Translations under genes and position numbers: made by a program
The notes under the pieces: generated by a model
Database searches by the model: none
What the model was told of the DNA's origin: nothing
The model's input: only the letters and a program-made list of their open reading frames with translations
NCBI GenBank assembly: GCA_002790835.1
Contig: PFVX01000046.1
Span: 1 to 49,516, forward strand
Direction: 5' to 3'
Source of the DNA: a bacterium CG_4_9_14_3_um_filter_65_15
GTDB lineage: Bacteria; Krumholzibacteriota; Krumholzibacteriia; LZORAL124-64-63
Length of the DNA stretch: 49,516 nucleotides
In this document: one piece after another, positions 1,819-21,966 of the stretch
Numbering within the stretch: position 1 is the first letter of the stretch
Layout of the letters: each line of letters begins with the position of its first letter

Positions 1819-1826
1819 GCTTCCCC

Positions 1827-3112: not shown

Positions 3113-3141
3113 TTGAATCACAATGGCCGATCGGGTATCTT
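3113..3141 (+). promoter_or_regulatory. Candidate sigma-70-type promoter for the starch-binding operon
   Basis: TTGAAT at 3113-3118 and TATCTT at 3136-3141 are separated by 17 bases, each matching the consensus at four of six positions. They lie between the divergent malE-like gene and the five-gene operon starting at 3195. On the other strand a TTGTGA / TGTAAT pair with short spacing could serve malE. This is a motif match only. Confidence 0.35.
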
Positions 3142-3194
3142 CCCTCCCCAGCGCGCCCGGCCTTTTACCCAAGCTCCGGATCGACGGTATCACC

Positions 3195-6100
3195 ATGTCC
3201 AAGACCATGTTTCCGCCGCATCGCAACCGGATTTTCCTGCTCGTGACCTTGATCGCCCTCCTCGGCGCATCGGCCGCCGTGGCGGTCCCCTATCACGCCC
3301 CGGTGATCAACGGCGTGATCACGCCCGACGGAACCGACTGGGACCCCGCGGATCTGGTCGTCAACGACCGGGCCGACGACAACACCTCCCGCACCGCCAA
3401 CGTGCGCAACCTGTGGGTGACCTGGGATCAGGACAACCTCTATCTGGGCATAAGTTATCAGGATTTCGGGCCCGACGAGGCTCTTGCCGTCTACCTGGAC
3501 CTGGACAAGGAGATCGGCCTGCGCTCGGCCGCCGATCTGGACACCTATGCCGGCAACTTCCTGCTGCCCGAAGGCCACGGCATCGACCTGGTCCTGGGCC
3601 GGCTGCCCGGCGACAGCGTTGACCTCGGCGGCCCCGCCCCCGGCGTGCGCCTGGTCAATGACGACACCGGCGCCACCATCGACATCGGTGACCTGATCAC
3701 CTCCGCCCAGGCCGTCAGCGTGGGCAAGGATGCCTCCGCGCTGCCGTTCTGGTTCAACGCGGAATTCGCCCTGCCCTGGTCGGTGATCTACCCCGACGGT
3801 ATGCCCGACCTGGCCGTGCTCAAGGCCGTGGCCGTGGCGACCAAGTCCAGCGCCGATCTCAACGGAATCGACTCCGCTCCCAACAACGCCGGCCTGGACG
3901 GCGGCAGCGCCCAGGTTGAATTGGCGAATCTGCACGCTTCGATCCTCGACATCTCGGGCGACGGCGCCCCCGATCCGGCCACCGGGTCCATCTCCGGCAC
4001 GGTGACCCTGCCCGGCGACGACGGCGCCACCGCCGTGAGCGCAACTGCCGTCATCACCGGCTTTGCGGGCCGCGATCCCGGCTCCGCCCTCTCCGCGGTG
4101 ACCACCACCGCCGGAGTCACCGCCTACACCCTGCCCCGCCTGCCCGACGGCACTTACACCGCCAGCATCTCCGCTGAGGGCTACTTGCCGTCATCCGGGT
4201 CGTTCACGGTCGCCGGCGGGCAAGCCACCACAGGGGCGGACTTCACCCTGGAAAAGGCCATCGCCATCCGGGGCACGGTCGATTTCGCCTCCGGACCCGG
4301 CGCAGCGGGCTCCTTGACCCTGCTGGATTCCGGCGGGACCGTCCTGCAGACCAAGACCTTCACCGCCGCGGGCGGCGCCTATGTCTTCTATGTCGAGGCC
4401 GGCCAGTACACCGTGCGCGCCGAAGCCGACACCTATCTCCCCGGCGAGATCCCCGTGACGGTGCCCGCAGGAACCGACGTAACCGGCGTCGATTTTCTCC
4501 TCGCGAGGCAGACCGAGATCAGCGGCACCGTGAGTTTCGACTCCGGCCCGGGTGCCGCCGGCACCATCCGCCTGCTCGACACCCAGGGCACCGAACTCGA
4601 TTTCACCGATTTCCCCGCCAACGGAGGCCCCTTCTCCTTCTTCACGGCCACCGGAGGAGATTTCGTGCTCTCGGCCTCGGCGCCCACCTATGTCACGACG
4701 GAAATGGAGATTACCGTTAGCGCGGGCACCGATCTGACCGGGCTGGAGATGGCGCTTCCGCGGGCCCCCCGGGTATTCGGCGCCGTGGAATTCGAAGGAC
4801 CGGTCTCCGCCGGCAGCCTGGAACTGTACGACGAGTTGGTCGGAGCCGTCCGCGACACCGGCAGTTTTGCCGCCGCCGGGGACACCTTCTCCTTCTACCT
4901 GAATCCCGGCACCTACCGCCTCAGCCTCACCGCTCCCGGATACCAGCCCCTGGAACAGGCGCTGACCGTGGGCTTCGACGACCTGGACCTGGGCGACCTC
5001 ACCCTGCAGGCCGTTCGCGCCGACCATCTGGAGATCGTGAACGCCCTCGGCATCACCCAACCCGACGTCCGGGGCACCGTCTCGATTCCCGCCGACGAAT
5101 TGTGGTTCCTGACGCCCGTGACGCTGGCCGCGCGCGACGCCGACGGCCGGGACGACCTGTTCGACCTGGACGGCGGTCTCGGCGGCTTTGTCCTGAGCGC
5201 CCTGAAGATGGACGACCAGAGCACACCCCGCGGCACGCCGACTTTCTACGCCTCCGAAGACCTCGAAGACACCACCACGACGGTGGATTTCCAGGACGGG
5301 CGCGCGAAGTTCTGGATGACCAACACCGCCGTCGAGGTGCTCAGAGTCTACCTGGCCCAGCCGGGCAAGGATCCGGTGGCCGGCCGCATCATCGTGGCCT
5401 TCCAGGATCCCAAACCCACCACCGTGGTGCTGACCACGGCTGCGGAAACCCTCGCCGCCGATGGTCTGACCACCGTCCAGATCACGGCCCAACTCTACGA
5501 CTCGGCCCGCAACCCCAGCCGCCTGGCCGACATCCCGGTCACGTTCGCCGTATCGCCTGCTTCCACCGGTGACGGCCGCTTCATCGTGCCCTCGGCCACC
5601 ACCAACGCCGACGGCCAAGCGACCGCCGAGCTGTCGGCCACCGGTTCGGGCACCCTGCTGGTCACCGCATCGGTGGTGATCAACAACGTCGCCCTCACCG
5701 TGGTTGCGGGATCCCTGGAGAGCGGCGAGGCCCTCTTGTCCATCACCACGCTGGCCGGCCCGCCGACAGGCTGGGAGATCATCCTTCCGGGCAATCTCAG
5801 CGACCTGTCCACCCCCGTGAACGTGACCGCCCAGCTGGTCGATGTGTTCGGCAATCCTTCCCCCACGGAAGGCCAAAGCTTCACCTTCGCAGCCAGCCCC
5901 ACCGCGCTGGGCGGCTTCTCTCCGGCCAGCGCCGTGACCGACACCAACGGCCGCGCCATCAGCGCCTTCACCCCCGCCGGGGCCGCCGGGCTGGTCACCC
6001 TTGGCGGACAAGGCGGTGCCTATCCCGTGCGGGGCGCCGGATTGCGCCTGCGCGACGTCATGGTCATCAGCGACCCGGACTGGGAGCACGAACCCGGCAC

Positions 6101-9100
6101 CCGTCACGTCTTTCCGCCGACGGACCTGACCGCCCTGGTGGTGGACAACAGCCCGGGCGCCCTGATCCTCGACATCCCCTTCGCGTCCGACTGGGCCGGC
6201 CTGCAAATGCATGTGATCTTCGAGACCAAGTTTGACGCTGCGGGTGCGACATCCGACCCCTTCGTGCAGCCGGTCAATTACGCCCACGACCTGCTTCCCG
6301 ACTTCGCCATCACGTGCAAGTACAGCGCCGACGACTATGGGGACTTCCGTCGCTGGAACACCGTGCTCAACGCGTGGGAGTGGTACGACCCCGATTCCGA
6401 CACCTATACGACCGTCCAGGGCTACAACATTCAGAATCTCTGGACCCGCAAGGACGGTGACGGGTTCCACATCGAGATTCCCTGGGCGGCTTTCGGCGGC
6501 ATGCCCGATTCCCTCCGGCTGGAGACCTACCTGACCCAGGAGGACGGCGGCGTCAAGCGCTCCGCCTTCGATTCGGCCCCCCAGGACTCCACCCTGAACC
6601 TGACCTTCGACTACCTCGACCCCGGGCCCAACGACTGGGTCGCCGCCCTGGGTCCCGTCACCCTGTCCGCGTGGGGCGGACCTTATGTGGTGAAAACCGA
6701 CTTCCCCGCCGCACCGGCGGTGAGCAACGTCCAGATCACCCCCGCGGCCGTGAACGCCGGTGAGCCCATCACCGTGACCGCCCGGGTCACCGACGGCGGC
6801 GACGGCATCGGCGACGTGCTGGCCGACCTGTCCCCCGCCGGCGGCGGCGCGCTGGTGAGGATGTATGACGACGGCGCACCCAGCCACGGCGACCAGGCGG
6901 CCGGCGACGGGACCTACAGCATCCAGTTCCTGGTTCCGGTCGGGAATCCCGGCGGCAACCAGGTGCTGAAGATTTCCGCCTTCGACGCCGGCAACACCAG
7001 TACGGCCGGCGGCGAGGCCACCTTGTCGGTGACCGCCATCGTCGAGCCCATCCTCGAGATCAGTGATCCGGTCGGCGACGATCACGGCCCCAATCAACCG
7101 GGGACCGCGCGGAAGTTCTACACCTATCCCACCAACATCGTGTTCGGCGAGGGCAACTTCGACCTGACGGGGCTGACGGTCTACGAGACCTCCACCACCA
7201 TCGCCGGACAGACCATCGACATGTTCGCGTTCCAGGTCTCGATGGTCGATTTTCCCGACCCCGCCGACCCCAGCACGGCCGACTGGAACCCGCTCTACGC
7301 CGAACTGAACCTCGAGAAGATCGACATCCTCATCGACAGCGGCCCCGGCGGCGCCACCACCACCCTGCCCAACCGCCAGGCAGCCTTCCAGTCCTGGGAC
7401 GCCTGGGACTACGCCATCATCCTGGACGGCTGGTACAAGGCCGTCATTCCCAGCCTGGGCCAGAACACCCTGCAGTCGTGGCGCGACAACGCCCTGCGCA
7501 CGGACCAGGACATCATTCTTCTGGGCGATCCCGCGCGCAACACGGTCACCGCCCTCGTGTCCCGGGCCGCCCTGGGCGACCCCACCGTGGATGATATTCT
7601 CGGCTGGGACATCGCCGTCTGCATGTCCAGCCACGACTTCGGCGGCGAAGAGGTGCTGGGCGGCATCCGCTGGGTGAACGAGGCCCGCAGCGAGTGGAAC
7701 TTCGGCGGCGGCCAGAACAGCGACCGCGATTCCAATCTCATGGATCTGCTCCTGGTCCCCGGGTCCGGTCACGGCCCCGGCAAGAGCCAGGAGGAGATCC
7801 TGGACTACGAATCCGCAGCCGCCCTGGCGAGACTCGACCTCGGCCTGACCCCGGTGGCCATCGAGATGAGCGCCCCCGAAGACACCGGACCACCGGTGAT
7901 CGATACCGGCGGCGGCGGATCCATCCTGACCCGCGTCGAACCCCTGGTCGATGCGCCCGTGGCCATGTCCATGCGGATCACCGACGACACCCGGGTCAAC
8001 AGGGCATCCATGCGTTATCGCAGTTCCGGTTTCACCGGCCAGGGTTGGGACCGCGAAGTGGCCATGGGATCCCTCGGCAACAACCTGTGGGTGACCGACA
8101 TTCTGCCGACCTGGCTGGATTCGAATCTGGTCTACTCCCCGGTGGACAGCAGCCGCTACATGGAATTCGAGGTCACCGCCGTCGACGACAGCAACAAGGT
8201 CTCGGTCACGCCCGTGACGACCCTCCAGGTGGCCCCGGCGGCTTCGTCCCGCACCACCTCCAAGGCGATGAACGACGGCGACATGAGCCTGCTGCAGGTC
8301 GAAGGTTCCACCCTTGAGATTCCCGACAGCCTGCGCAGGAAACTGCTGCAAAACCACATCGCCTCGGCCTGGACCGGCACGGATGTGGCTGCCGACACCA
8401 TGGGCTCGCGGATCTCCCTGGACTGGAGCCTGTACGCGACGCCCTCGATCCTGGAGGAAGCGCCGCAGACCCCACCCGGCCGGCCGTTGGGAGTCCTGCG
8501 CGGCATCGGCCTGTCCACTTCCGATTCCCTCGGCGGCACTCTCGTTCAGAGCGGCGATCTGCCCGGCGTGATGCGCCTTTCCCTGCACTATCCCCAGGCC
8601 TGGATCCCACGGGGCGCGGACGAGAGCAAGATCGGCATCTACGAGTACCAGGCCGCCAACAACCGCTGGTTGCTCCTGGGCGGCACGGTCGCCACCGCGG
8701 GCAACCTGGTGACCGCCACGATCAGCCGCACCGGGACCTACGGCCTCTTCCTGACCGAAGGTTTGACCCGCAAAGGCGGAGATGTCATCTCGGGCATTCT
8801 GGTCTCCCCCAATCCCTTCTCTCCCAATGGTGACGGCCTGTACGACGAGACCCACATCTCGTTCTACCTCGACCGCGAGGCGACGGTGACGGTGGAGATC
8901 TTCAACTCCCGGGGCAAGCGCCAGCGGGTCCTGGAGCAGACCTTCCACTATTCGGGTGACGAGCAGGACGGCCGCGTTCCCCACCGCGTGGCGGGACTGA
9001 TCTGGGACGGCCGCGACTTCGCCGGAGACATCGTGACCTACGGGATCTACATTCTGCGGATCGAGACCACCTACAACCAGGCCGGCGGGACCCGCACCAT

Positions 9101-9134
9101 CCGCAGCAACCACTCCCTGGCGGTGATCAAATGA
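3195..9134 (+). CDS. Giant secreted multidomain protein with glucodextranase-C-like module and FlgD-like C-terminal domain
   Basis: About 1979 residues. The ATG at 3195 is preferred over 3123 because it places a classical signal peptide at residues 1-30. Order: a CBM9/DOMON-like sandwich (~30-250); about four CarboxypepD_reg/CNA-B-like repeats, each opening with a short I-x-G-T-V strand (~260-610); two invasin-type Ig-like domains (~740-950); a sandwich beginning VISDPDWEHEPG (~955-1170); an Ig-like domain; a module like the C-terminal domain of glucodextranases and pullulanases, with DPVGDDHGP and FDLTGLTVYE (~1285-1550); a long unassigned stretch; and a FlgD-Ig-like end with VSPNPFSPNGDG (~1861-1979). 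No glycosidase domain is visible, so it is more likely a surface or matrix carbohydrate-binding protein than an enzyme. Its stop overlaps the PorV-like start (ATGA). Confidence 0.85.
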   Translation: MSKTMFPPHRNRIFLLVTLIALLGASAAVAVPYHAPVINGVITPDGTDWDPADLVVNDRADDNTSRTANVRNLWVTWDQDNLYLGISYQDFGPDEALAVYLDLDKEIGLRSAADLDTYAGNFLLPEGHGIDLVLGRLPGDSVDLGGPAPGVRLVNDDTGATIDIGDLITSAQAVSVGKDASALPFWFNAEFALPWSVIYPDGMPDLAVLKAVAVATKSSADLNGIDSAPNNAGLDGGSAQVELANLHASILDISGDGAPDPATGSISGTVTLPGDDGATAVSATAVITGFAGRDPGSALSAVTTTAGVTAYTLPRLPDGTYTASISAEGYLPSSGSFTVAGGQATTGADFTLEKAIAIRGTVDFASGPGAAGSLTLLDSGGTVLQTKTFTAAGGAYVFYVEAGQYTVRAEADTYLPGEIPVTVPAGTDVTGVDFLLARQTEISGTVSFDSGPGAAGTIRLLDTQGTELDFTDFPANGGPFSFFTATGGDFVLSASAPTYVTTEMEITVSAGTDLTGLEMALPRAPRVFGAVEFEGPVSAGSLELYDELVGAVRDTGSFAAAGDTFSFYLNPGTYRLSLTAPGYQPLEQALTVGFDDLDLGDLTLQAVRADHLEIVNALGITQPDVRGTVSIPADELWFLTPVTLAARDADGRDDLFDLDGGLGGFVLSALKMDDQSTPRGTPTFYASEDLEDTTTTVDFQDGRAKFWMTNTAVEVLRVYLAQPGKDPVAGRIIVAFQDPKPTTVVLTTAAETLAADGLTTVQITAQLYDSARNPSRLADIPVTFAVSPASTGDGRFIVPSATTNADGQATAELSATGSGTLLVTASVVINNVALTVVAGSLESGEALLSITTLAGPPTGWEIILPGNLSDLSTPVNVTAQLVDVFGNPSPTEGQSFTFAASPTALGGFSPASAVTDTNGRAISAFTPAGAAGLVTLGGQGGAYPVRGAGLRLRDVMVISDPDWEHEPGTRHVFPPTDLTALVVDNSPGALILDIPFASDWAGLQMHVIFETKFDAAGATSDPFVQPVNYAHDLLPDFAITCKYSADDYGDFRRWNTVLNAWEWYDPDSDTYTTVQGYNIQNLWTRKDGDGFHIEIPWAAFGGMPDSLRLETYLTQEDGGVKRSAFDSAPQDSTLNLTFDYLDPGPNDWVAALGPVTLSAWGGPYVVKTDFPAAPAVSNVQITPAAVNAGEPITVTARVTDGGDGIGDVLADLSPAGGGALVRMYDDGAPSHGDQAAGDGTYSIQFLVPVGNPGGNQVLKISAFDAGNTSTAGGEATLSVTAIVEPILEISDPVGDDHGPNQPGTARKFYTYPTNIVFGEGNFDLTGLTVYETSTTIAGQTIDMFAFQVSMVDFPDPADPSTADWNPLYAELNLEKIDILIDSGPGGATTTLPNRQAAFQSWDAWDYAIILDGWYKAVIPSLGQNTLQSWRDNALRTDQDIILLGDPARNTVTALVSRAALGDPTVDDILGWDIAVCMSSHDFGGEEVLGGIRWVNEARSEWNFGGGQNSDRDSNLMDLLLVPGSGHGPGKSQEEILDYESAAALARLDLGLTPVAIEMSAPEDTGPPVIDTGGGGSILTRVEPLVDAPVAMSMRITDDTRVNRASMRYRSSGFTGQGWDREVAMGSLGNNLWVTDILPTWLDSNLVYSPVDSSRYMEFEVTAVDDSNKVSVTPVTTLQVAPAASSRTTSKAMNDGDMSLLQVEGSTLEIPDSLRRKLLQNHIASAWTGTDVAADTMGSRISLDWSLYATPSILEEAPQTPPGRPLGVLRGIGLSTSDSLGGTLVQSGDLPGVMRLSLHYPQAWIPRGADESKIGIYEYQAANNRWLLLGGTVATAGNLVTATISRTGTYGLFLTEGLTRKGGDVISGILVSPNPFSPNGDGLYDETHISFYLDREATVTVEIFNSRGKRQRVLEQTFHYSGDEQDGRVPHRVAGLIWDGRDFAGDIVTYGIYILRIETTYNQAGGTRTIRSNHSLAVIK

Positions 9135-10021
9135 CGAAACGATCGACACGATTTCCCGCCGGGACGTGCCTGCTGCTCTGGGCGGCCTTGGCCGTGCTAT
9201 CGCCGCCTGCGGCCCGCGCCGACTTCAAGCAACAGCACATCGGGGCGCGTCCCATGGCCCTGGGTTCGGCCTATGTGGCCTTGGCCGACGACGCCAACGC
9301 CGTGTACTGGAACCCCGCCGGCCTGACCCGCCTGGCCACCCCGATGATCATGGGCACGCGGACCCGGTTGTTCACCAGCGACATCAACAACGACTACGTG
9401 GCCGTGGGCGTGCCCGGTCGCCTCCTTTCCTTCGGCGCGAGCTGGGTCCGCCTGGGCATCGACAACATCTACTCCGAGGACACCATCAACCTGGCGGTGG
9501 CCGCCAAGGCACCCTGGCTGAAGGGGCTGTCGGTCGGCATCGCCGGCAAGCTCTTCCTCCTGGACGCCCCCGGATACGTCCAGTACGACGACCCCAACTA
9601 CCTGGGCGGGGACCACGATTTCAGCTTCGATCTGGGTTGGCTCTACGACAAGGGCGGCAACTGGACCCTGGGTGGAACCTTCTACAACGTCCTGTCCCCC
9701 AAGCTGCAACTGATCAGCACCACCACGGATCCCGATCCCGTGTACAGCGAATGGGTCCTGGGCGGCAGCTACCTGTTCCGCGAGACCCTGCTGGCGACGG
9801 CCGACCTGCGCAGCCGCGAGGGTGAACTCAACAACATGGTCATCAACTGGGGCGCGGAAATCTGGTTTTTCAACACCCTGGCGCTGCGGGCGGGCATGGC
9901 CGAGGGCAAAGTGACCCTGGGCGCCGGCCTGCAGGACGCCCACTGGCGCCTGGGGCTGGCCCTGGAGACCAACAACAAGCTGGGCGACATCTATGAGATT
10001 TCGTTCACCCTCAGGAAGTGA
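9131..10021 (+). CDS. PorV/PorQ-like outer-membrane protein
   Basis: Predicted outer-membrane beta-barrel of 296 residues with a signal peptide ending near Ala-Arg-Ala. The mature start carries the hallmark of the PorV/PorQ (UPF0164, FadL-related) family: GARPMALGSAYVALADDANA followed by YWNPAGL. In type IX secretion, PorV carries C-terminal-domain cargo to the cell surface. Here the gene overlaps the end of a giant secreted protein by four bases, so a cargo-carrier pairing is tempting but unproven. PorV-like proteins also occur in bacteria without a known type IX system, where their role is unclear. Confidence 0.8.
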   Translation: MTKRSTRFPAGTCLLLWAALAVLSPPAARADFKQQHIGARPMALGSAYVALADDANAVYWNPAGLTRLATPMIMGTRTRLFTSDINNDYVAVGVPGRLLSFGASWVRLGIDNIYSEDTINLAVAAKAPWLKGLSVGIAGKLFLLDAPGYVQYDDPNYLGGDHDFSFDLGWLYDKGGNWTLGGTFYNVLSPKLQLISTTTDPDPVYSEWVLGGSYLFRETLLATADLRSREGELNNMVINWGAEIWFFNTLALRAGMAEGKVTLGAGLQDAHWRLGLALETNNKLGDIYEISFTLRK

Positions 10022-10031
10022 CGGGCCACCG

Positions 10032-11621
10032 ATGCGACTGAACAGTTATACGGCAGGCAGGTGCAGGTTGGCCGCGGGCCATCCCTTGGCTCTCCTGGTG
10101 CTGGTCGCGGCCCTGGCCCTGCCCTGCACCTCCCAGGCCGGCAACCGCATGGAGGGCTACTACTCCCTGTCCATCGCCGCCGAGAAGCAGGACACCCGCT
10201 GGCATTTCGGCGCTCCGGACGAGAACGGAATCCCCAGCCATTACGCCGAACTGAAGTTCTTCTCCAATCCCAACGACCGGCTGGAAGTCTTCTCCAAACT
10301 CCGCGCCTGGGCCAACCGGGACGACGGCAGCACCTCGGACGTGGAATTCTACCGCCCACCCTGGTACAGCGCCGAAGGTCACATCAAGATCCGGGAAACC
10401 AAGTGGGAGTCGTACATCTTCTACCGGCAGAACCGGTTCTACATCAACGACGAACCGCTGCTGCGCCTGGTCGACGACAACAAGCTGAAGAACGATTCCT
10501 ACGGCCCCATGGCCCAGGGAGTCCGCGTGGATTTCTGGGATACCGACCTCCTGGGAGTCAAGGGCCTGGGCGGCACCTTGATCGTCAGCGACTCGGGCAG
10601 CACCGTTCCCGCCGGCGACACCTACTACGTCGCCCGGCTGCGCCACAAGGTCTGGGGTGAGCGCATCACCTCCGGAGCGATGCTCCTGCGCAAGGACTTC
10701 GGCTTCGACTCCACCGGCAAATCGTACAACCAGGTCTATTCCGCCGACGTGACCTTGTCCCCGCGCAACCTGGTCGACACCGGACTCCAGCTCGGCCCCA
10801 TCAACCTCGAGCAATCCCGCTGGACGGCCGAAACCGCCTGGAGCATCCGGCCCGGCGAAGAGGCCAGCATCGGCGCCTCCCGCGCCCGTGCGCGCGCCAT
10901 CGCCATGGAGATGCGCAACATCGTCATCGGTGACCTGACCCTCAACGGCTGGTACAACGACTTCGGCGAGGATTTCCGCAGCTACCTGTCCAACCGATTC
11001 GACGACAGCCACGAGTACAACCGGGTGCAGAAGCACGCCGAAGCCATCTGGCTGGTCCCGCGCAAGTCGGTGACGGCGAAATTCACCTACGACCATTATC
11101 GCAAGCGCATCGCCGACGAACCGGGCGGCGGTCTGCGCCCCGCCACCGAGCTCTACGGCGAGCTCTACATGGAATACATCAACGGCTTCAAGTCCCGCTT
11201 CGCCTACAAGCAGTGGCGCGGCTATGACGGATCCCTGGAGATCAACGACTTCTACACCTACCCCGACTGGTTCGGGGAGGTTTCGGTGGAGAACTTCCTG
11301 GCCAAGATCAGGATCCAGGGCCGCGTCCACGACGCCGGCACCTTCCGCCAGGTCACCGCGTTCGGCTTCGACATGCAGGTGAACATCACCACCAAGCTGA
11401 AGGGTTACCTGCGGGCCATGAACGTCAACGAGAAGACCGAGGCCCGGCACACCCTGTTCGCCCAGCTGAAGTACGACCTGGGCTGGGGCGCGGACCTCTA
11501 TCTCGAATTCGGTGATCCGGGCCAGTCGGACAACCTCGTGTATACCGATTGGTTCGTGAACGAGAGCAACGGAGACAACTTGCGCGACCGGATCAAATTG
11601 AGCCTGTCGTCGTGGTTCTAG
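10032..11621 (+). CDS. Outer-membrane beta-barrel protein of unknown specificity
   Basis: 529 residues. The start at 10032 gives a signal peptide (hydrophobic LALLVLVAALALPC stretch, cleavage near SQA) and lies 10 bases after the previous stop with an AGGAAG ribosome-binding site. The mature protein alternates polar and hydrophobic residues with many aromatic girdle residues and ends in Ser-Trp-Phe, the C-terminal aromatic expected of a BAM substrate. I do not recognise a named family. It sits between the PorV-like protein and the starch-binding barrel, so it may be a channel or structural partner for glucan uptake. That is inference from position. Confidence 0.75.
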   Translation: MRLNSYTAGRCRLAAGHPLALLVLVAALALPCTSQAGNRMEGYYSLSIAAEKQDTRWHFGAPDENGIPSHYAELKFFSNPNDRLEVFSKLRAWANRDDGSTSDVEFYRPPWYSAEGHIKIRETKWESYIFYRQNRFYINDEPLLRLVDDNKLKNDSYGPMAQGVRVDFWDTDLLGVKGLGGTLIVSDSGSTVPAGDTYYVARLRHKVWGERITSGAMLLRKDFGFDSTGKSYNQVYSADVTLSPRNLVDTGLQLGPINLEQSRWTAETAWSIRPGEEASIGASRARARAIAMEMRNIVIGDLTLNGWYNDFGEDFRSYLSNRFDDSHEYNRVQKHAEAIWLVPRKSVTAKFTYDHYRKRIADEPGGGLRPATELYGELYMEYINGFKSRFAYKQWRGYDGSLEINDFYTYPDWFGEVSVENFLAKIRIQGRVHDAGTFRQVTAFGFDMQVNITTKLKGYLRAMNVNEKTEARHTLFAQLKYDLGWGADLYLEFGDPGQSDNLVYTDWFVNESNGDNLRDRIKLSLSSWF

Positions 11622-11691: not shown

Positions 11692-14139
11692 ATGAGCGTC
11701 AACGCACAAAGTCGGCATTCCACTTTCCGGTCGGGCCTGCGCCGCCTATCGGCCTTCAGCCTGGGCGCCTGCCTGATGCTGGCCACACTGGCCGCATCCG
11801 CTGCACCAACACCCGGCGACGGAGGGGTCCTGTTCACCTACAGCGCACCCGACGCCGCTGCGGTGTTCCTGGCCGGTGATTTCAACGGGTGGGACGCCAC
11901 CGCCACGCCCCTGGTCAAGGGTGACAAGGGCCTTTGGAAGGTGACGGTTCCCCTGGAACCCGGCGAGTACGAGTACAAGTTCGTGGTCGATGACCAATGG
12001 CAGGACGACCCGGACAACTCCCGCCGCAAGTCAGACCCCTTCGGAGGCTTCAACTCCCTGGTCGTCGTGGGCGCCGACGGAAAGCCCGAGGCGGATGCCG
12101 CGGCAGCCGCACCCGCCCAGGCCGGAACCCCCGCGCCCGCCGCAACCGACAAGATCGCCGTGGGCCGGCCCAAGGCCACGGCCGACGGCGTGCTGTTCAC
12201 CTATCGCGATCCGGGCGCCGGCGCCGTCTTCCTGGCGGGGACCTTGAACGGCTGGAGCGCCACCGACACCCCCATGAAGAAGGACGGCAAGGGCAACTGG
12301 TCCGTGGTTAAGAAGCTGGATGCGGGCAGTTACGAGTACAAGTTCGTGGTGGACGGCAACTGGGTGGCCGACCCGGAGAATCCCGACACTTCGGCCGACC
12401 CCTACGGCCGCGTGAACTCCGTCGTCGCGGTGGATGACAAGGGGAAGGTCGTCGCGGCGTCCGCCGCGCCGGCTTCCGCCTCCACGGGAACCACGTTGAC
12501 CACCAAGATGACCATGAGCGGGCGTTACCTGACCCGGTTCGAGCTGACCAAGAACGTCAACTCCGACCCGCGGTACCGCCTCCTGCGCCCTTCCATGAGC
12601 GTGGACATGAACTTCAACACGCAGGTCAACGACCTGGTGGACGCCTATACGCGGCTGCGCATGGACAGCAACGACAACGTGATCCTCAACAACATCACCG
12701 GCAACCTGGACGAGGCGACGATGTGGGTCCATCCCGACAAGTTCGACGTCAAGGCCTACTGGAACCGGGAGATCTTCACGAGCACCGATCCCCTGAACCT
12801 CGCGGGCAACACCAACCACCCGGGGTCCATCGGGCACGACCACCTGCAACTGGGCAAGGGAACCGCGGGCGCCGTCGTGACCGCCGACCCGTTCGGAGTG
12901 CATTTCCGGGGCTTTTTCGCCAACGTCCACAATTTCGACTACTACAACGACCCGCGCCTGTTCGACAACACGGGCGGGGACCGCATCTGGGGCCGCTTCT
13001 CACACAAGATCGGGTCGGTGGATCTGGGGGTTCCCATCTGGCTGCAGCGTGAGCTCATCTGGATGAACTTCGAATCCATCGTGGGCCAGCCGTCCACCGG
13101 CATCCCCGCCCTGGACGACTACCTGGCGCGCTCGGGTGACTCGAGCACCTGGTTCGAGACCGAGTACCACGATTACAAGTTCGGCGTCGACGCCACCATG
13201 CCCCTGCGCGACGAGACCATGCGCCTGGGCGCCGAGGTCCTCTATGTCGACACCGCCGAACGCTTCGTGACGGGCAACCAGGCGGGCCAGAACAACGTGA
13301 ACGGCACCATCGACGTGCCCTTCGACGACCGCAGCGCCCTGCTCGCCTCCCTGCGCCTGGACTACGACCCGGACGTGGAAACATCCGTGAGGCTGCAGCA
13401 CCGTCGCCAGAACACCCACGGGGCCACCGCCGACCAGCGCACCCTGCTGCTCGGCTTCGTGGACCAAGCCATCGCGGAAAACCACATCTTCTTCGCCATC
13501 GCCGACGCTCCGGCCCCGACCACCTGGAACTGGACGGAATTCGAGTTGGACAAGACCAGCGGAGACCGCCAGCTGAAACTCTATTGCTGGTACTCGACCC
13601 TGCAGGAGGATTTCGCCGCCGTCGGGCGGACCGTGCCGGGCGACACCACCCGCACCGACCGGACCCAGGGGACCCTGTACCTGTCCGGCCTGGTCGGCAA
13701 GGGTGAGGCCGACTCCCGTTTCGGCCACGGCGAACTGGAATTCGGGCTGACCTTCATGGACCCCGACGTGGGCGACCAGGACGCCAAGTCCTACGAGTTC
13801 ATCGGACGCTGGCGCCGACAGGTCTCGCGCACGGTCGACGCCATCGCCGACGTCCGCCACATCGCCTACGACGTCACCGGCTCCGACGCGACCGTCAACG
13901 ACGACTTCTGGGCCCCGTTCCTGGGCCTGGAGTACGAGCCCCAGGCCAACCTGGACCTGGTCTTCGGTTACGGGGTGGATCCGGTGGAACTGAGCATCGA
14001 CTACAACGGCCGCCAGTTCGGCCGCTGGTGGTACCGCCAGCGCTACCTGTTCGACAACCCCGACGCCGGCCTGATGGATGCGGAACAATACCTGGAGAAC
14101 GCCAGGGTCTTCACCCTGCGCGCCCAGTTGACCTTCTAA
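11692..14139 (+). CDS. Tandem starch-binding (CBM48-like) modules fused to an outer-membrane beta-barrel
   Basis: 815 residues. Signal peptide (~1-37); two E-set starch/glycogen-binding modules of the CBM48/AMPK-GBD type at ~43-126 and ~164-246; Ala/Pro-rich linkers; then a barrel-like region from ~266 ending in LTF with a terminal Phe. Both modules carry the family pattern VFLAG-x-x-NGW, then YEYKFVVD, then a D-P-x-G-x-x-NS loop. Such modules normally sit on enzymes, kinases or soluble binding proteins, not at the N-terminus of a barrel. If the barrel spans the outer membrane, starch could be bound directly at a pore. Which side of the membrane the modules face cannot be read from sequence. 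Fourth gene of the operon, with a GGGAGA ribosome-binding site. Confidence 0.85.
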   Translation: MSVNAQSRHSTFRSGLRRLSAFSLGACLMLATLAASAAPTPGDGGVLFTYSAPDAAAVFLAGDFNGWDATATPLVKGDKGLWKVTVPLEPGEYEYKFVVDDQWQDDPDNSRRKSDPFGGFNSLVVVGADGKPEADAAAAAPAQAGTPAPAATDKIAVGRPKATADGVLFTYRDPGAGAVFLAGTLNGWSATDTPMKKDGKGNWSVVKKLDAGSYEYKFVVDGNWVADPENPDTSADPYGRVNSVVAVDDKGKVVAASAAPASASTGTTLTTKMTMSGRYLTRFELTKNVNSDPRYRLLRPSMSVDMNFNTQVNDLVDAYTRLRMDSNDNVILNNITGNLDEATMWVHPDKFDVKAYWNREIFTSTDPLNLAGNTNHPGSIGHDHLQLGKGTAGAVVTADPFGVHFRGFFANVHNFDYYNDPRLFDNTGGDRIWGRFSHKIGSVDLGVPIWLQRELIWMNFESIVGQPSTGIPALDDYLARSGDSSTWFETEYHDYKFGVDATMPLRDETMRLGAEVLYVDTAERFVTGNQAGQNNVNGTIDVPFDDRSALLASLRLDYDPDVETSVRLQHRRQNTHGATADQRTLLLGFVDQAIAENHIFFAIADAPAPTTWNWTEFELDKTSGDRQLKLYCWYSTLQEDFAAVGRTVPGDTTRTDRTQGTLYLSGLVGKGEADSRFGHGELEFGLTFMDPDVGDQDAKSYEFIGRWRRQVSRTVDAIADVRHIAYDVTGSDATVNDDFWAPFLGLEYEPQANLDLVFGYGVDPVELSIDYNGRQFGRWWYRQRYLFDNPDAGLMDAEQYLENARVFTLRAQLTF

Positions 14140-14150
14140 GGAGTGCCAAC

Positions 14151-14588
14151 ATGCGACCGGACCTATCCGCCGCGAGATCCGCGACCCTGACCGCAACCAT
14201 ATTGCTGCTGGCTGTCCTGCTGGTGGGATGCAGCTACACGAGGATCCTGCGCAGCCGCCTGCCGTCGCCCCACCGCGTGGACGACTTCGAAAACGCGGTC
14301 CTGTTCCAGTACGAGGCGCCCCAGGCCAAGCACGTCAACCTGTGCGGCAACTGGGACGACAACACCTGGTGCGGCACTCAGGGCACCGGCCGCTTCGACC
14401 AGACCATCGGCGCCATGCAGGATGAGGACCACGACGGTGTCTGGCAGGTCACCGTCCCTCTCAAGGCCGGTCGCTACCAGTACAAGTTCGCCGTGGACTG
14501 GGGCATCCGCTGGGAATCCGACCAGAACAATCCCTTGTCCGAGGAAGACGGTTTCGGAGGATCCAATTCGATCCTGATCCTGCACTGA
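14151..14588 (+). CDS. Small starch-binding (CBM48-like) lipoprotein
   Basis: 145 residues. Lipoprotein signal with lipobox LLVGC, then about 30 linker residues and one CBM48/AMPK-GBD-like module (VLFQYEAPQAKHVNLCGNW, then YQYKFAVDWG, then EDGFGGSNS). Compared with the other modules in the locus it has an insertion after the first strands (around NTWCGTQGTGRFDQ) and two cysteines (in CGNW and WCG) that could form a disulfide. The ATG at 14151 follows AAGGAGTG by 5 bases and lies 11 bases after the barrel stop; longer upstream frames are shadows. Last gene of the operon. A likely function is a glucan-binding accessory lipoprotein, analogous in role but not in sequence to SusE/F. Confidence 0.85.
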   Translation: MRPDLSAARSATLTATILLLAVLLVGCSYTRILRSRLPSPHRVDDFENAVLFQYEAPQAKHVNLCGNWDDNTWCGTQGTGRFDQTIGAMQDEDHDGVWQVTVPLKAGRYQYKFAVDWGIRWESDQNNPLSEEDGFGGSNSILILH

Positions 14589-14718: not shown

Positions 14719-15867
14719 TTACCGGAACATGCTCTTGAGCGAGCCCCAGCTGCTGTCCTGGGCATCGACCGGCATGCAGTCGATGGCGCCGTCATCCCAC
14801 CCGAAGAACAGGTCGGTCTCGGCGAGGATGCTGTTGTCCACGGTGAAGGAGCGGTTGCCCACGCCTTCCCAGGTCTGGCAGGCGTCCTTCTTGAACTTGA
14901 ACTCGAAGGTGAAGGGGATCTGCGTGCCCTGCGGGAAGACCAGGCAGGCCTGGTACAGGTTCGAACCGATCATGACCATGGGCTTGCCGTCGCCCCAGTT
15001 GGTCAGCTCGGCCAGTCCACCGGTCACACACACGCCGCCGTCGGTGGTCGCGGCGCCCAGGCAAACCTGAATGCAGACGACTTTGTCCTCGGTCAGGAAG
15101 GTCTCGTTGCCGCAGCCCATGGGCAGGTCTTCCCAGCTCTGCGTGTCGAGCACGACGGAGGGGGAAAGGCCGTCGGTGGGCAGGGTCACGGCGCGGTTGG
15201 CGTGGCTTTCCCAGGTGGCGCAGCCATCCTTCTTGAATTTGTACTCGAAATACGGATTGGAACCGGCCGGGAAGGTCACGACGCCTTCCCAAAGGTCGCC
15301 GCTGGTGTTGATCAGGTTGACGCCCGTACCCCAGGTGCCGATTTCGGCCGCCGAACCGATGACGCAGACGTCGCCGGCGGTGACCGCACCACTCAGACAG
15401 ACGGAGAACGTCACGTCGATGGGACTGGGCAGGACATTGGACACGGTGTAGGTCTGGGGGGCAGCATTGCTGGCCTGGTCCAGCAGACCGGAGTAGTCCG
15501 TCATGTCACTCAGATCGTGGAAGGTGATGTCCACGGCGACCCAGGCCGCTCCGGCCATCATGCTGGTCGGGACCTGAGCCGTGTACTCGTCGTTGGCTCC
15601 ATTGTCGCCGAGGAAGGCCATGGCCACGCTCATGTTGCCGCCCAAGTCGTTGGTGATGACCATGTCGGCGGAGATGTCCGCACCCTGGCCGGCCGCGTCG
15701 GTGACGCCGCCCTTCCAGACCTGGGCGTAGACGTCCACGGGGCTCACGGGAGTGACGATGGCGCCGCTGTTGGGCCAGACATTGCCGGCCCAGCCGATGA
15801 CGGCGAGGGCGTTACCCGCTGCACACAGCAGCATGGCGGCGCTCGCCAGCAGGATCAATTTCTTCAT
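14719..15867 (-). CDS. Secreted protein with two CBM20-like starch-binding domains
   Basis: 382 residues. Signal peptide of 22 residues (cleavage after ALA), an N-terminal beta-rich domain of no recognised family (~23-140), then two CBM20-like domains (~152-250 and ~265-355). Each has the family pattern: a VTFSV- or CIQVCL-type strand, GSAAEIGTWG or GGLAELTNWG, an FEYKFKKD strand and a W-E-x-x-x-NR motif. Four cysteines recur at matching places in both repeats. No catalytic domain is present, so this is probably a free or surface-attached starch-binding protein. The ATG at 15867 follows GGGAGGGT. Monocistronic, with its own extended -10 motif and terminator. Confidence 0.85.
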   Translation of the reverse strand: MKKLILLASAAMLLCAAGNALAVIGWAGNVWPNSGAIVTPVSPVDVYAQVWKGGVTDAAGQGADISADMVITNDLGGNMSVAMAFLGDNGANDEYTAQVPTSMMAGAAWVAVDITFHDLSDMTDYSGLLDQASNAAPQTYTVSNVLPSPIDVTFSVCLSGAVTAGDVCVIGSAAEIGTWGTGVNLINTSGDLWEGVVTFPAGSNPYFEYKFKKDGCATWESHANRAVTLPTDGLSPSVVLDTQSWEDLPMGCGNETFLTEDKVVCIQVCLGAATTDGGVCVTGGLAELTNWGDGKPMVMIGSNLYQACLVFPQGTQIPFTFEFKFKKDACQTWEGVGNRSFTVDNSILAETDLFFGWDDGAIDCMPVDAQDSSWGSLKSMFR

Positions 15868-16018: not shown

Positions 16019-18730
16019 TTAATTCGGATGATTCAGCAAAACCGTCCCACTCATGGCCGGAAGGGTCACGGTCCGGGATTCTGTGGAACCCAGATTCCAT
16101 TTGTCCCCGGTCCGGAAGGGGGCTCCGGTGGCCCGCGGAAAGACCTCCGGACCCACCACAACGGTCATTTCCAGGCCCTGGGGATCGGTCAATCGGTCCA
16201 GAAGGTCGCCCGGAAGGGTCATGGTCACGGGCGTGCTGCCCGCGTTCAGCAGAACCACGGCCAGATCCCCGCCCTGGCTGCGGGCGAAGGCGTATCCCTT
16301 GCGCTCGGTGGCCAGAGTGGTGAAGGCACCGCGGCTCAGCACGGGAGTGTCCCGGCGCAACCGCGTGATCGCCCCGTAGTAGTCGCGCAGGGCGGTCTTG
16401 CGGGGGTCGCCGGTGTATCGCCAGTCGAAGGGGCGGCGGCAATCGGGGTCCTTGCCCCCGGTCATGCCCACCTCGTCGCCATACCAGATATGGGGCATTC
16501 CCACGTAGTTCATGCCGAACATCGCCGCCAGCATCAGGCGGCGCACGTCACCGCTGCTGGTCAGGAAGCGGATGGTGTCGTGGCTGTCGGCCAGATTCAT
16601 CATCACCGCCACCGACTGGGGCGGATACTGGAAGCGGCCCGGACTCAGACGCTGGTCGAAGGCCGCGGCGCTGATGGCGCCCTTGCCGAAGAAATCCATC
16701 ACCGGGTCACGGAAGAACTTGTAGTTCATGGTCGAATCGAACCCCTTGGGCCCGATCCAGGCGCCGGCGTTGCCCCACAGCTCGCCCACCAGCCAGCAAT
16801 CGGGCTTGATGGATTTGCAGCGCTCGTTGAACAGCTTCCAGAACCAGTGCGGAACCTCGTTCGGCACGTCCAGACGGAAGCCGTCGATGTCCAGGTCGCC
16901 CAGCCAGTAGTCGGCCACGCTCAGCACGTAGTTCACCACGGGCCAGTTCGGCGTGGCCCGGGTGATGTCGGTGATGTTGTTCTCCGCCGCGTTGGGCAGC
17001 TTGAGGTCGTAGTTCAGATTGGGGTGCAGGCCGAATCCCCACCAACAGTCGTAGTAGTCGGAGGCCTTGAAGTCCCGCGTATTCGGCAGCGGCCAGCGGT
17101 GGAACTCGTACCAGTTGTAGTACTCGCTCTTGGGCCCCTTCTCCACCGCGTCGCGGAAGGCGAAGTGCCAGTTCCCTGTGTGGTTGAAGGCCATGTCCAC
17201 CACAATGCGGATGCCGTGGGCGTGGCAATCCTGGACGAAGTCCTTGAACTCCCGCTCGTCGGCGAAGTGCGGGTCGATCTTCAGGTAGTCGACCGGATCG
17301 TACTTGTGGTTGCTCATCCCCTGGTTCAGGGGGTTGAAGTAGATCACGGTGATGCCCAGGTCGTTCAGGTAATCCAGGTGCTCGCGCACGCCGGCGATGT
17401 CCCCGCCGTAGAAGGAGAAGTAGTCCGGCTTGCCGTCGGTGCGGTAGGGGCTGTGGACCAGCGGGGCGACATCGTACCAATCCTTGTCCAGGTGGAAGTA
17501 TTCGCCGTTGGTCTTGCCCGAGGCCGGCAGCTCCTTGGCCCCCTCGTACCAGGGTTCGCTGAAATCGGGGTCGTTGCCCTTGTCCCCGTTGGCGAAACGC
17601 TCGGGGAAGATCTGGTAGATGATGCCGTCCTTGGCCCACTCGGGCGTGGGAAAGGGCTCGTGCACGGCCGCGCTGTAAACGAATCCGCGGGCCGGCGCGC
17701 TGGGCTCCATGCCCTGCGGCCCGAAGTATTCCATGTAATCCCCGTCGTGGTAGGTGATCACGTACTCCATCGTGTCGGTGGGGTCATCCAGCTTGACCGT
17801 CGCCCGGTAGTACTGGAACGCGGCGTCGGACTCCACGGGCTCCATCCTGATGGTGTCGCCGGACAGGGCCTGTCCCGCGGGAAGATTCACGGCATAGTGC
17901 AGCTCCAGCCTGGTCACGTCGCCCTGATGGGCACGGGCGGTGATGATCACCTCGGTCGCGGTGACCGGGTTGCAGGTCGAGTAGTCGAAAACCGGCTCGA
18001 TGTCGTCGCTGAAGATCTTGTCGTCCCCCAGCTCGATGGTGATGGAGGAGAACGTGTCATCCACCTTCAGCACGCTGTTCTGGCCGCCGAAGCCGTCCTC
18101 GGCACCCACGGGGTTGGCGGGATCCTGCTGCCACTGGCCGTCCACCACGAACTTGTACTGGTAGGTGCCCTGGGGAAGCAGCAGGGTCACGGTGTAGGTG
18201 CCGTCGTTGTCGGGGTCGGTCATGCGGGTCTTCGAATCGTTCCAATCGTTGAAGGATCCGGCCAGAAAAACATTGGACACACCGGAGATGACCGGCGTGT
18301 AGGAGAACTCCACCGACCGGGCGGTGCCGTCGTCCGCGCCCGTCGCAGGGGCCGCTTCACCGGCGGCAGGAGCCGCGCCGCCGGAAGCGGCATCCATGGC
18401 GGCGGTGCCCGCGGGCACCGTCAGCACGCTGTTCTGGCCCCCGAACCCGTCATCGGTTCCGTTGGGGTTGGCCGGATCGGCGCCCCATTGGCCGTCGGCC
18501 ACGAACTTGTACTGGTAGCTGCCCGGTTCCAGATCCAGGGTCAGGGTCCACACGCCGTCCTTGTTCGCCATGGGGTTAGCCGAATCGCTCCAGCCGTTGA
18601 ACTCGCCCGCCAGAAAGACGCTTCCCGCGGCGGGGGCTTCGTATTGGAAGGTCACCTTGGCGCCTTGAACGGGCAGGGCCAGAGCCAGCAGGACCGGCAC
18701 GACCAGGATCAGGGAACGGGCTGCGCGCAT
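16019..18730 (-). CDS. Secreted GH13 neopullulanase/cyclomaltodextrinase-like amylase with two CBM48-like modules
   Basis: 903 residues. Signal peptide (~1-24); two starch-binding E-set modules (~25-106 and ~139-223) separated by an Ala-rich linker; a further N-domain (~236-350) of the type found before neopullulanase barrels; a GH13 TIM barrel (~365-800) opening with WAKDGIIYQIFPERFANGD; and a C-terminal beta domain. Catalytic residues are visible: nucleophile Asp621 (DGFRLD), acid/base Glu650 (LVGE) and transition-state Asp718 (SHD), plus region I DMAFNH. It should cleave alpha-1,4 (perhaps also alpha-1,6) bonds in maltodextrins. The signal peptide places it outside the cytoplasm, unlike most cyclomaltodextrinases. 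It lacks a lipobox. Divergent from the amylase lipoprotein. Confidence 0.93.
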   Translation of the reverse strand: MRAARSLILVVPVLLALALPVQGAKVTFQYEAPAAGSVFLAGEFNGWSDSANPMANKDGVWTLTLDLEPGSYQYKFVADGQWGADPANPNGTDDGFGGQNSVLTVPAGTAAMDAASGGAAPAAGEAAPATGADDGTARSVEFSYTPVISGVSNVFLAGSFNDWNDSKTRMTDPDNDGTYTVTLLLPQGTYQYKFVVDGQWQQDPANPVGAEDGFGGQNSVLKVDDTFSSITIELGDDKIFSDDIEPVFDYSTCNPVTATEVIITARAHQGDVTRLELHYAVNLPAGQALSGDTIRMEPVESDAAFQYYRATVKLDDPTDTMEYVITYHDGDYMEYFGPQGMEPSAPARGFVYSAAVHEPFPTPEWAKDGIIYQIFPERFANGDKGNDPDFSEPWYEGAKELPASGKTNGEYFHLDKDWYDVAPLVHSPYRTDGKPDYFSFYGGDIAGVREHLDYLNDLGITVIYFNPLNQGMSNHKYDPVDYLKIDPHFADEREFKDFVQDCHAHGIRIVVDMAFNHTGNWHFAFRDAVEKGPKSEYYNWYEFHRWPLPNTRDFKASDYYDCWWGFGLHPNLNYDLKLPNAAENNITDITRATPNWPVVNYVLSVADYWLGDLDIDGFRLDVPNEVPHWFWKLFNERCKSIKPDCWLVGELWGNAGAWIGPKGFDSTMNYKFFRDPVMDFFGKGAISAAAFDQRLSPGRFQYPPQSVAVMMNLADSHDTIRFLTSSGDVRRLMLAAMFGMNYVGMPHIWYGDEVGMTGGKDPDCRRPFDWRYTGDPRKTALRDYYGAITRLRRDTPVLSRGAFTTLATERKGYAFARSQGGDLAVVLLNAGSTPVTMTLPGDLLDRLTDPQGLEMTVVVGPEVFPRATGAPFRTGDKWNLGSTESRTVTLPAMSGTVLLNHPN

Positions 18731-18900: not shown

Positions 18901-18914
18901 CCATGGAGTTCACC

Positions 18915-20777
18915 ATGCCCCGCATTCGGATTATTGCCCTGCTTGCCGCCCTGATCGCCCTGAGCTCCTGGTTGGCGGCCTGCACCGAGCACGACCCGGT
19001 GAAACCGGTGCCTGGATCCGATGACCCCTTCGCCAAGACCCACTCCGACACCTTCACCCTGCGGGCCTACGCGCTGGACTCGGTCTACCTGGCCGGGACG
19101 GTCAACAACTGGAGCACCCAGGATCCGGCCTGGCAACTGACCCTGGACGCCGACGGTTATACCTGGCGCTTGATCACCGACGTCCCCGACGGCCTGATCT
19201 CCTACAAGTTCATCATCCGCAAGGGCGCCGCCATGGCCTGGCTGACCGATCCGTCCGCCGTGGAGGTCGACCCCGGCGGCGGCAGCCCTTCCTACGGCAA
19301 CGCCGTGCGCGGTCGCACCTTCGTCACTCCCCAGGCCCTGCCCCAGCCCCTGGACCGCGCCCGCCTGGTGATCTACGAGACCAACATCAACGAACTGAGC
19401 AGCACCGGCTCCTTCGCCGGGGCCTACGGTGCACTGACGTCCGGCGCCAACCTGGCCGACCTCGGCGTCAACGCTCTTGAGTTCTTGCCCGTGACGGCGC
19501 CGTCGTACAACGGCTGGGGCTACGACCCGGTGCTGCAGTTCGCCCCCAACCCCAGCTTCGGTTGGCCCTCCACCTTCGCCCTGCTGGTGGATGCCGCCCA
19601 CGCCAACGGCATGGCCGTGATCCTCGACGTGGTCATGAACCACATGGCCGGCAGCACACCCCTGCGCCAGCTGGACGACTTCACCGGCCGCAACGACTTC
19701 ACCACCACCGAGAGCAATCCCTTCGGCATGGTGGAAATGAACTGGGCCAACGCGGCCCTGCGCGCCCACATGATCGACGCCCTGAGCCACTGGGTCTCCG
19801 CCTACAAGGTGGACGGTTTCCGCTTCGACTACATCAGCGGCGAGCCCTACTCCACCTGGGTGACCATCAAGACCGAGCTGCGGGCGCGTTTTCCGGACCT
19901 GTTGCTGATCGCCGAGGACTTCGGCTATCCGGCCAATTCCGTCACCTACGGCTATGACGCCCAGTGGGGCGGCAACCACACCGACAGCTGGGGCGGCGGC
20001 GGCAACAACTTCAACCAGGTGCTGATCACGGCCCTGACCGAAAGCGGGTTCGCCTGGCGCGGCCAGCTCAGCAACAGCATTGGCGCCTTCGGGCCCGCCT
20101 ACAACAACATGTGGGCCGTGGCCAACGTGATCTCCGGCAACAGCAACTACGCCGGCGCCGCGACCGGCGACGGGTTCAGCGACATCAAGTACCTCGAGAG
20201 CCACGACGAGAATCGTCTGGTGTGGGCCGTGGACAACCTGGGCTCCAGCGGCGCCCAGGGGATCGGCGGGTCCGCCAAGGCCTTCCTGGGAGCGGTGGTG
20301 AACATGACCAGCGTGGGCGTCCCCATGCTCTTCGGCGGCCAGGAGATGGGCTCAAGCGAGTACCGACCCGAAGGGACCTCGATTTACAAGGTGGACTACA
20401 TCGGTGGCGACCAGGACCTGCGCCGGGCGTACAAGCGGTTGATCAGGCTGCGCCTGAACCATCCAGCCCTGGCCACGGAGAACGTCTTTTTCCAGTGGCG
20501 CGGCGGGAACATCGACCAGACGGAATACACGATGACCTACTGGCGGGGGTCCACCAACGTCTCCAGCCAGGCCGAGATCGTCGTGGCCTGCAACTTCGAC
20601 CACAACGACCACGCGTGGGACGTGCCGTTCCCCGCCGCCGGCACCTGGTTGAAATACGATCTGGCCGCGGGCACCGTCACCGTCACATCCGTCACCGGCG
20701 GTTCCCTCGCCCTGACCGTTCCGGCCTCCACCGGGTGGGTATTCGTGCGCGAGGACGGCGTATCGGGAGTGCCGTAG
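18915..20777 (+). CDS. GH13 alpha-amylase-family lipoprotein with N-terminal CBM48-like module
   Basis: 620 residues. The ATG at 18915 is preferred over 18903: it has GGAG six bases upstream and directly opens a lipoprotein signal with lipobox LAAC (Cys23). A CBM48-like module follows (~48-120, VYLAGTVNNWS, YKFIIRKG). The GH13 barrel (~150-540) begins VIYETNINELS and shows region I DVVMNH, nucleophile Asp305 (GFRFD), acid/base Glu334 (LIAED) and Asp431 (ESHD), then a C-terminal beta domain. The IYE opening and GYDP motif resemble branching-enzyme- or trehalohydrolase-like GH13 members, but the lipid anchor and locus favour surface starch hydrolysis. Divergent from the 18730 amylase and followed after 97 bases by the ATPase gene. 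Confidence 0.9.
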   Translation: MPRIRIIALLAALIALSSWLAACTEHDPVKPVPGSDDPFAKTHSDTFTLRAYALDSVYLAGTVNNWSTQDPAWQLTLDADGYTWRLITDVPDGLISYKFIIRKGAAMAWLTDPSAVEVDPGGGSPSYGNAVRGRTFVTPQALPQPLDRARLVIYETNINELSSTGSFAGAYGALTSGANLADLGVNALEFLPVTAPSYNGWGYDPVLQFAPNPSFGWPSTFALLVDAAHANGMAVILDVVMNHMAGSTPLRQLDDFTGRNDFTTTESNPFGMVEMNWANAALRAHMIDALSHWVSAYKVDGFRFDYISGEPYSTWVTIKTELRARFPDLLLIAEDFGYPANSVTYGYDAQWGGNHTDSWGGGGNNFNQVLITALTESGFAWRGQLSNSIGAFGPAYNNMWAVANVISGNSNYAGAATGDGFSDIKYLESHDENRLVWAVDNLGSSGAQGIGGSAKAFLGAVVNMTSVGVPMLFGGQEMGSSEYRPEGTSIYKVDYIGGDQDLRRAYKRLIRLRLNHPALATENVFFQWRGGNIDQTEYTMTYWRGSTNVSSQAEIVVACNFDHNDHAWDVPFPAAGTWLKYDLAAGTVTVTSVTGGSLALTVPASTGWVFVREDGVSGVP

Positions 20778-20874: not shown

Positions 20875-21955
<1,081 letters not shown>

Positions 21956-21966
<11 letters not shown>

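Follow-up and report, generated by a model that had tools for sequence, protein, structure and literature searches.

The 49,516-nucleotide stretch of DNA analyzed here (the window), from a Krumholzibacteriota MAG, encodes an 815-amino-acid (aa) protein that joins two N-terminal CBM48 modules to a C-terminal domain strongly supported as an outer-membrane β-barrel. We consider it reasonably likely that this protein is a maltodextrin porin, with periplasmic CBM48 modules that catch glucan leaving the pore and pass it to an amylase and to MalEFGK. Gene context suggests the transport role, whereas the pore activity and the hand-over of substrate are predicted. The original prediction, in which the protein binds glucan and places it at a pore, is thus kept as the best reading, with both the binding and the association with a pore being predicted properties.

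The open reading frame (ORF) spans exactly positions 11692 to 14139 of the forward strand, as read from the ORFs of the window. Codon-position composition gives a GC3 of 0.90, and the barrel codons differ from those of the L041 ortholog at 102 first, 63 second, and 175 third positions; from this composition and this pattern of divergence, the ORF is judged to be a genuine gene. Antisense ORFs overlapping it were ruled out by codon-position G+C content. Orthologs have comparable N termini, without a lipobox.

Both CBM48 modules are well matched by established families. AMPK1_CBM (PF16561) matches two stretches (whole-protein E value of 4.4e-31; 107.4 bits against a curated Pfam cut-off of 26.8), and CBM_48 (PF02922) matches the protein with an E value of 1.7e-23. 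Their closest solved relatives are the glycogen-binding domains (GBDs) of AMPK beta, the GBD of AMPK beta-1 (1z0n) matching module 2 with an E value of 6e-10, and models of the modules superpose on the AMPK GBD with target-normalized TM scores of up to 0.86 (Foldseek); module 1 is modeled by AlphaFold2 (AF2) with a pLDDT of ~80. The putative glucan contacts are W67, K96, W103, and N121 in module 1 and W188, K217, W224, and N242 in module 2, which we take to be the Trp, Lys, Trp, and Asn positions that contact sugar in AMPK. All eight are unchanged in an alignment of four orthologs, and the contact motifs are present in 45 to 53 of 53 modules across relatives. With Pfam scores far above cut-off and contact residues intact, the two CBM48/AMPK-GBD-like modules first noticed in the sequence are confirmed.

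The remainder of the protein belongs to no recognized family, as had been proposed: neither Pfam nor NCBIfam has a match to residues 259 to 815, and sequence comparison with the PDB gives none either, even when a 22-member profile is used. The alignment of the barrel family contains 23 strand-like alternation peaks, as opposed to 8.6 in shuffled alignments (z = 6.2), and its density of amphipathic strands is 4.1 per 100 aa versus 1.2 to 2.2 in most of the soluble families that served as controls and are encoded at these loci. Alternation z scores of the GH13, MalE, CBM20, and CBM48-pair control families from these loci range from -0.3 to 1.2. The 2,003-aa protein encoded nearby reaches a z score of 3.2 at half the density of the barrel, and a family of small CBM48 lipoproteins equals the barrel in density (4.1 per 100 aa) but has a z score of just 2.1. 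The last strand (VFTLRAQLTF) is a canonical β-signal, and its terminal Phe is kept throughout the barrel family.

Structure prediction points the same way. An AF2 run on the full-length protein with four sequences yielded no usable barrel, and the model of residues 259 to 815, also from four sequences, is weak overall (pLDDT, 42; pTM, 0.45); its central hairpins have a pLDDT of ~80 and consist of long, antiparallel strands of 11 to 20 residues. The closed barrel of at least 16 strands that had been anticipated is still a prediction at this level of confidence, in its closure as in its strand number. The 50 best PDB fold matches of this weak model are outer-membrane barrels, among them CymA, FadL/TodX, OmpG, TonB-dependent transporters, and autotransporter domains, and not the soluble propeller or enzyme that would have contradicted the original prediction. 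The top match, CymA (TM score of 0.23 and 7% identity on a weak model), speaks to geometry only, and we give no weight to CymA as a homologue on this basis. Alternation, the C-terminal β-signal, and the fold matches together rule out a soluble propeller or enzyme, and the proposal of a C-terminal outer-membrane barrel ending in Phe stands on the alternation, the conserved last strand, the hairpin model, and the fold matches.

The side of the membrane on which the modules lie can be approached through the turns of the barrel. In known outer-membrane barrels, short turns are periplasmic, and a domain located N-terminal to a barrel with an even number of strands usually lies in the periplasm as well. 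The weak AF2 model has short turns (barrel numbering) at 142-143, 183-184, 249-251, 301-305, 366-367, and 452-455, alternating with longer loops at 154-168, 202-228, 271-283, 320-351, and 384-395. Adding alternating segments at both ends to the modeled hairpins gives ~22 strands, a count that is tentative, as is its parity, at a pLDDT of 42. If the short turns are periplasmic, then both termini of a ~22-stranded barrel would be periplasmic, and this parity, together with the short linker, would put the CBM48 modules at the periplasmic mouth rather than on the surface, where the likeness to SusE/F drawn in the original prediction had implied them to be. It is unlikely, in our estimation, that the N-terminal segment instead passes outward through the barrel and displays the modules on the cell surface to catch starch outside. 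Bacteroidota surface starch-binding proteins do place starch modules outside the cell, the cassette described below also encodes a T9SS-type surface protein, and a linker of 10 to 25 residues could in principle span the membrane; however, linkers to the start of the barrel profile are as short as 7 to 16 residues, leaving little room for threading, the normal location of a domain ahead of an even-stranded barrel and the turn and loop pattern of the model both fit periplasmic modules, and the GH13-CBM48 enzyme encoded at this locus carries an ordinary Sec signal, so that it too is likely periplasmic.

The 815-aa protein is encoded within a five-gene cassette, ordered as T9SS-type surface protein, PorV/FadL-like protein, 542-aa barrel-like protein (B542), CBM48-barrel, and CBM48 lipoprotein (Table 1), which probably serves starch uptake. 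The B542 gene lies directly 5' of the CBM48-barrel gene in 36 of 40 loci, and the CBM48 lipoprotein gene, with conserved ribosome-binding site and lipobox, lies directly 3' of it in 37 of 40; most exceptions involve a contig end or a copy that has diverged strongly. The full five-gene order occurs in most loci that are long enough, and the order of the first three genes (2,003-aa type [BIG], PorV-like, and B542) is seen in 28. A single protein standing in for its partners, as originally envisaged, does not agree with a locus in which a CBM48 lipoprotein and further envelope proteins have genes of their own, arranged in a constant order. The PorV-family match of cassette gene 2 (NF033709; E value of 3e-15) scores 56.5 bits, below the cut-off of 90. 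Profile-profile comparison of the barrel with B542 gives an E value of 1.6e-4 and a probability of 51% over 151 columns (0.3% for the PorV control), suggesting a possible shared origin of the two as distant paralogs.

TABLE 1 Coordinates of features in and around the CBM48-barrel gene
Feature	Position	Strand	Basis
MalG-like permease, real start internal	95..1450	-	Pfam BPD_transp_1
MalF-like permease, real start internal	940..2208	-	Pfam BPD_transp_1
MalE-like solute-binding lipoprotein	1827..3086	-	Pfam SBP_bac_8
2,003-aa secreted protein, Glucodextran_C and weak T9SS-type C-terminal domain (cassette gene 1)	3123..9134	+	Pfam/NCBIfam, synteny
PorV/PorQ-family (FadL-like) protein (cassette gene 2)	9131..10021	+	NCBIfam NF033709 below curated cut-off, synteny
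542-aa barrel-like protein, B542 (cassette gene 3)	9993..11621	+	Marginal profile similarity to barrel, synteny
Sec (SPase I-type) signal peptide of 815-aa protein	11692..11805	+	Sequence; cleavage near residues 37-38 (ASA/A), by eye
CBM48 module 1, residues ~45-128	11824..12075	+	Pfam PF16561/PF02922, HMM, ortholog residues, AF2
CBM48 module 2, residues ~164-250	12181..12441	+	Pfam, AMPK beta-1 GBD alignment, Foldseek
Low-complexity short linker, module 2 to barrel	12442..12507	+	Mostly 7-25 residues to barrel profile start in relatives
Outer-membrane β-barrel, residues ~273-815, tentatively ~22 strands	12508..14136	+	Alternation, AF2 hairpins, PDB fold matches
C-terminal β-signal strand VFTLRAQLTF	14107..14136	+	Terminal Phe and alternating hydrophobic pattern, 22-member alignment
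CBM48 lipoprotein, lipobox LVGC (cassette gene 5)	14151..14588	+	Pfam, synteny
Secreted protein, two CBM20 stretches	14719..15867	-	Pfam PF00686; start at internal ATG (MKKLILLASAA)
GH13 amylase/neopullulanase-like enzyme, two N-terminal CBM48 modules, Sec signal peptide	16019..18730	-	Pfam, translation
GH13 lipoprotein, lipobox LAAC	18903..20777	+	Pfam
MalK/UgpC-type ABC ATPase	20875..21966	+	NCBIfam, Pfam OB_MalK

The 2,003-aa protein also contains CarboxypepD_reg and Big_1 domains and no catalytic domain recognized by Pfam or NCBIfam, and proteins of its type are conserved in the cassette with large changes in length between phyla. The window genome contains a SprA_N homolog within a 2,222-aa frame (G000:C68:35435-36685), representing the type IX secretion translocon in Krumholzibacteriota, and its presence makes the T9SS-like tail of the 2,003-aa protein plausible. 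The CBM48 array of the GH13 enzyme appears to have expanded to four or more repeats in relatives L051, L053, and L054.

These neighbors bear on a second alternative, in which the barrel is a scaffold or secretion accessory that docks the 2,003-aa protein or amylases and the CBM48 modules merely position enzymes on glucan. Its fixed linkage to T9SS-type cargo and a PorV-like protein, the SprA in the genome, and the neighboring B542, possibly a second barrel and a candidate for the pore itself, are all compatible with such a role; in its size and its long loops the barrel nevertheless resembles a channel, and linkage to the genes of the mal ABC importer fits uptake, so that we regard a scaffold as improbable.

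The barrel family extends beyond the source phylum. Its profile (A4) matched 35 of 80 Krumholzibacteriota genomes and, among ~307 genomes from elsewhere, 14, and phylum-wide follow-ups in three further phyla recovered the family in 17 of 20, 8 of 17, and 6 of 8 genomes; the named relatives are Krumholzibacteriia MAGs. Each of the 40 untruncated family members examined carries at least one CBM48 module, weakly so in the divergent L092. Two modules occur in the window protein and its closest relatives and in one lineage of another phylum (L093/L094), and a single module is found elsewhere. In other phyla, too, the cassette is found together with mal and GH13 genes. Direct search detected no paralogues of the barrel in the window genome, and no relatives were found in viral contigs.

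Two further occurrences of CBM48 in the window genome are of separate interest. A 376-aa ParA/MinD-like ATPase (L115:628-1758, G000:C68) has a C-terminal CBM48 and perhaps positions something on glycogen granules. In L114:2288-4822 (G000:C39), the CBM48 match in the C-terminal ~100 residues probably represents a small cytoplasmic protein consisting of CBM48 alone (MSLQKKPLKTRPVSKVTF...), and the long upstream frame appears to be spurious, running antisense to a peptidase gene.

Under the porin reading, the 2,003-aa protein would capture or hold starch outside the cell, and the barrel would act as a passive, plug-less glycoporin channel for starch breakdown products, with fragments entering through it and possibly through other barrels. 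Where the pore opens into the periplasm, the CBM48 modules on their short linker would bind emerging malto-oligosaccharides and stop their back-diffusion, the CBM48 lipoprotein would also retain fragments, the periplasmic CBM48-GH13 amylase would trim those handed over by the modules, and MalEFGK would import the products. The other cassette proteins (surface protein, PorV-like protein, B542, and CBM48 lipoprotein) would act upstream or alongside. Transport in the opposite direction, with the 815-aa protein exporting α-glucan much as AlgE exports alginate, is very improbable: CBM48 does occur on glycogen-synthesis enzymes, and polysaccharide exporters include large barrels that lack a plug and bind carbohydrate on the periplasmic side, but amylases, starch-binding proteins, and an ABC importer of the maltose type are encoded at this locus, whereas no glucan synthase or copolymerase was recognized among the locus proteins scanned.

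More broadly, and tentatively, the periplasmic-CBM48 barrel, B542, the T9SS surface protein, and the PorV-like partner may form one complex, a previously undescribed starch-uptake machine of at least four phyla that is distinct from both Sus and LamB, in which the CBM48 modules, obligatory in the barrel family, would draw glucan through the pore. Full-text searches of open-access papers turned up neither a CBM48-barrel fusion or CBM48-porin, nor this cassette, nor a system combining CBM48, T9SS, and maltodextrin. CBM48 modules and glycoporins are each known; their conserved fusion within a multiphylum cassette appears to be new. The locus is a concrete candidate for the passage of starch fragments across the outer membrane in uncultured Gram-negative phyla outside Bacteroidota and Proteobacteria and, if the proposal is true, would constitute a second route beside the Sus paradigm and a marker for starch use in metagenomes.

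The 815-aa protein has no Pfam match to LamB (PF02264), which excludes it from the LamB/ScrY family, and LamB is absent from the window genome. The plug domain PF07715 is likewise absent from the protein, and there is no SusD, so that it is not a TonB-dependent, SusC-like transporter; SusD (PF07980) was found in 0 of 78 Krumholzibacteriota genomes. The absence of LamB from the genome and of SusD from the phylum sample implies that another outer-membrane route is needed. Nine TonB-dependent plug proteins are encoded in the genome, all on other contigs, and maltodextrin could cross through these rather than through the 815-aa protein, in the way that MalA transports it in Caulobacter (PMC6851124).

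Individual parts of the system have counterparts elsewhere. The GBD of AMPK beta and the CBM48 modules of GH13 enzymes share the fold and contact residues of the modules described here but are attached to a kinase subunit or to enzymes, in contrast to a membrane barrel. PorV/PorQ and their T9SS cargo resemble cassette genes 1 and 2, which likewise pair a T9SS-tailed cargo with a PorV-family-like protein, although the cassette matches fall below curated cut-offs and no coupling to a glucan-binding barrel turned up in the open-access papers searched. SusCDEF of Bacteroidota similarly combines outer-membrane starch binding and passage in one locus with amylases; unlike that system, the 815-aa protein lacks a plug, the phylum sample lacks SusD, and the locus includes a maltose-type ABC importer. 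With the modules also probably periplasmic, the original description of a one-protein SusC plus SusE/F is not supported.

Among porins, CymA, the cyclodextrin porin of Klebsiella oxytoca, is an α-glucan porin and the best geometric match of the barrel model, and it has an N-terminal loop that works from the periplasm (PMC8049027); its barrel is smaller, and the loop has 15 residues where the 815-aa protein has modules. ScrY, the enteric sucrose/maltodextrin porin, is an outer-membrane sugar porin with an N-terminal extension, which in ScrY is periplasmic; this coiled coil has been proposed to act as a "sugar slide" that interacts with malto-oligosaccharides as they come in and guides them toward the inner membrane (PMC5557850, citing Dumas 2000). 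The ScrY barrel is trimeric, has 18 strands, belongs to the LamB family, and carries a coiled coil, whereas the 815-aa barrel has no LamB similarity, tentatively ~22 strands, and folded CBM48 modules. With the modules probably on the periplasmic side, ScrY would therefore be a better analogue of this protein than SusC plus SusE/F.
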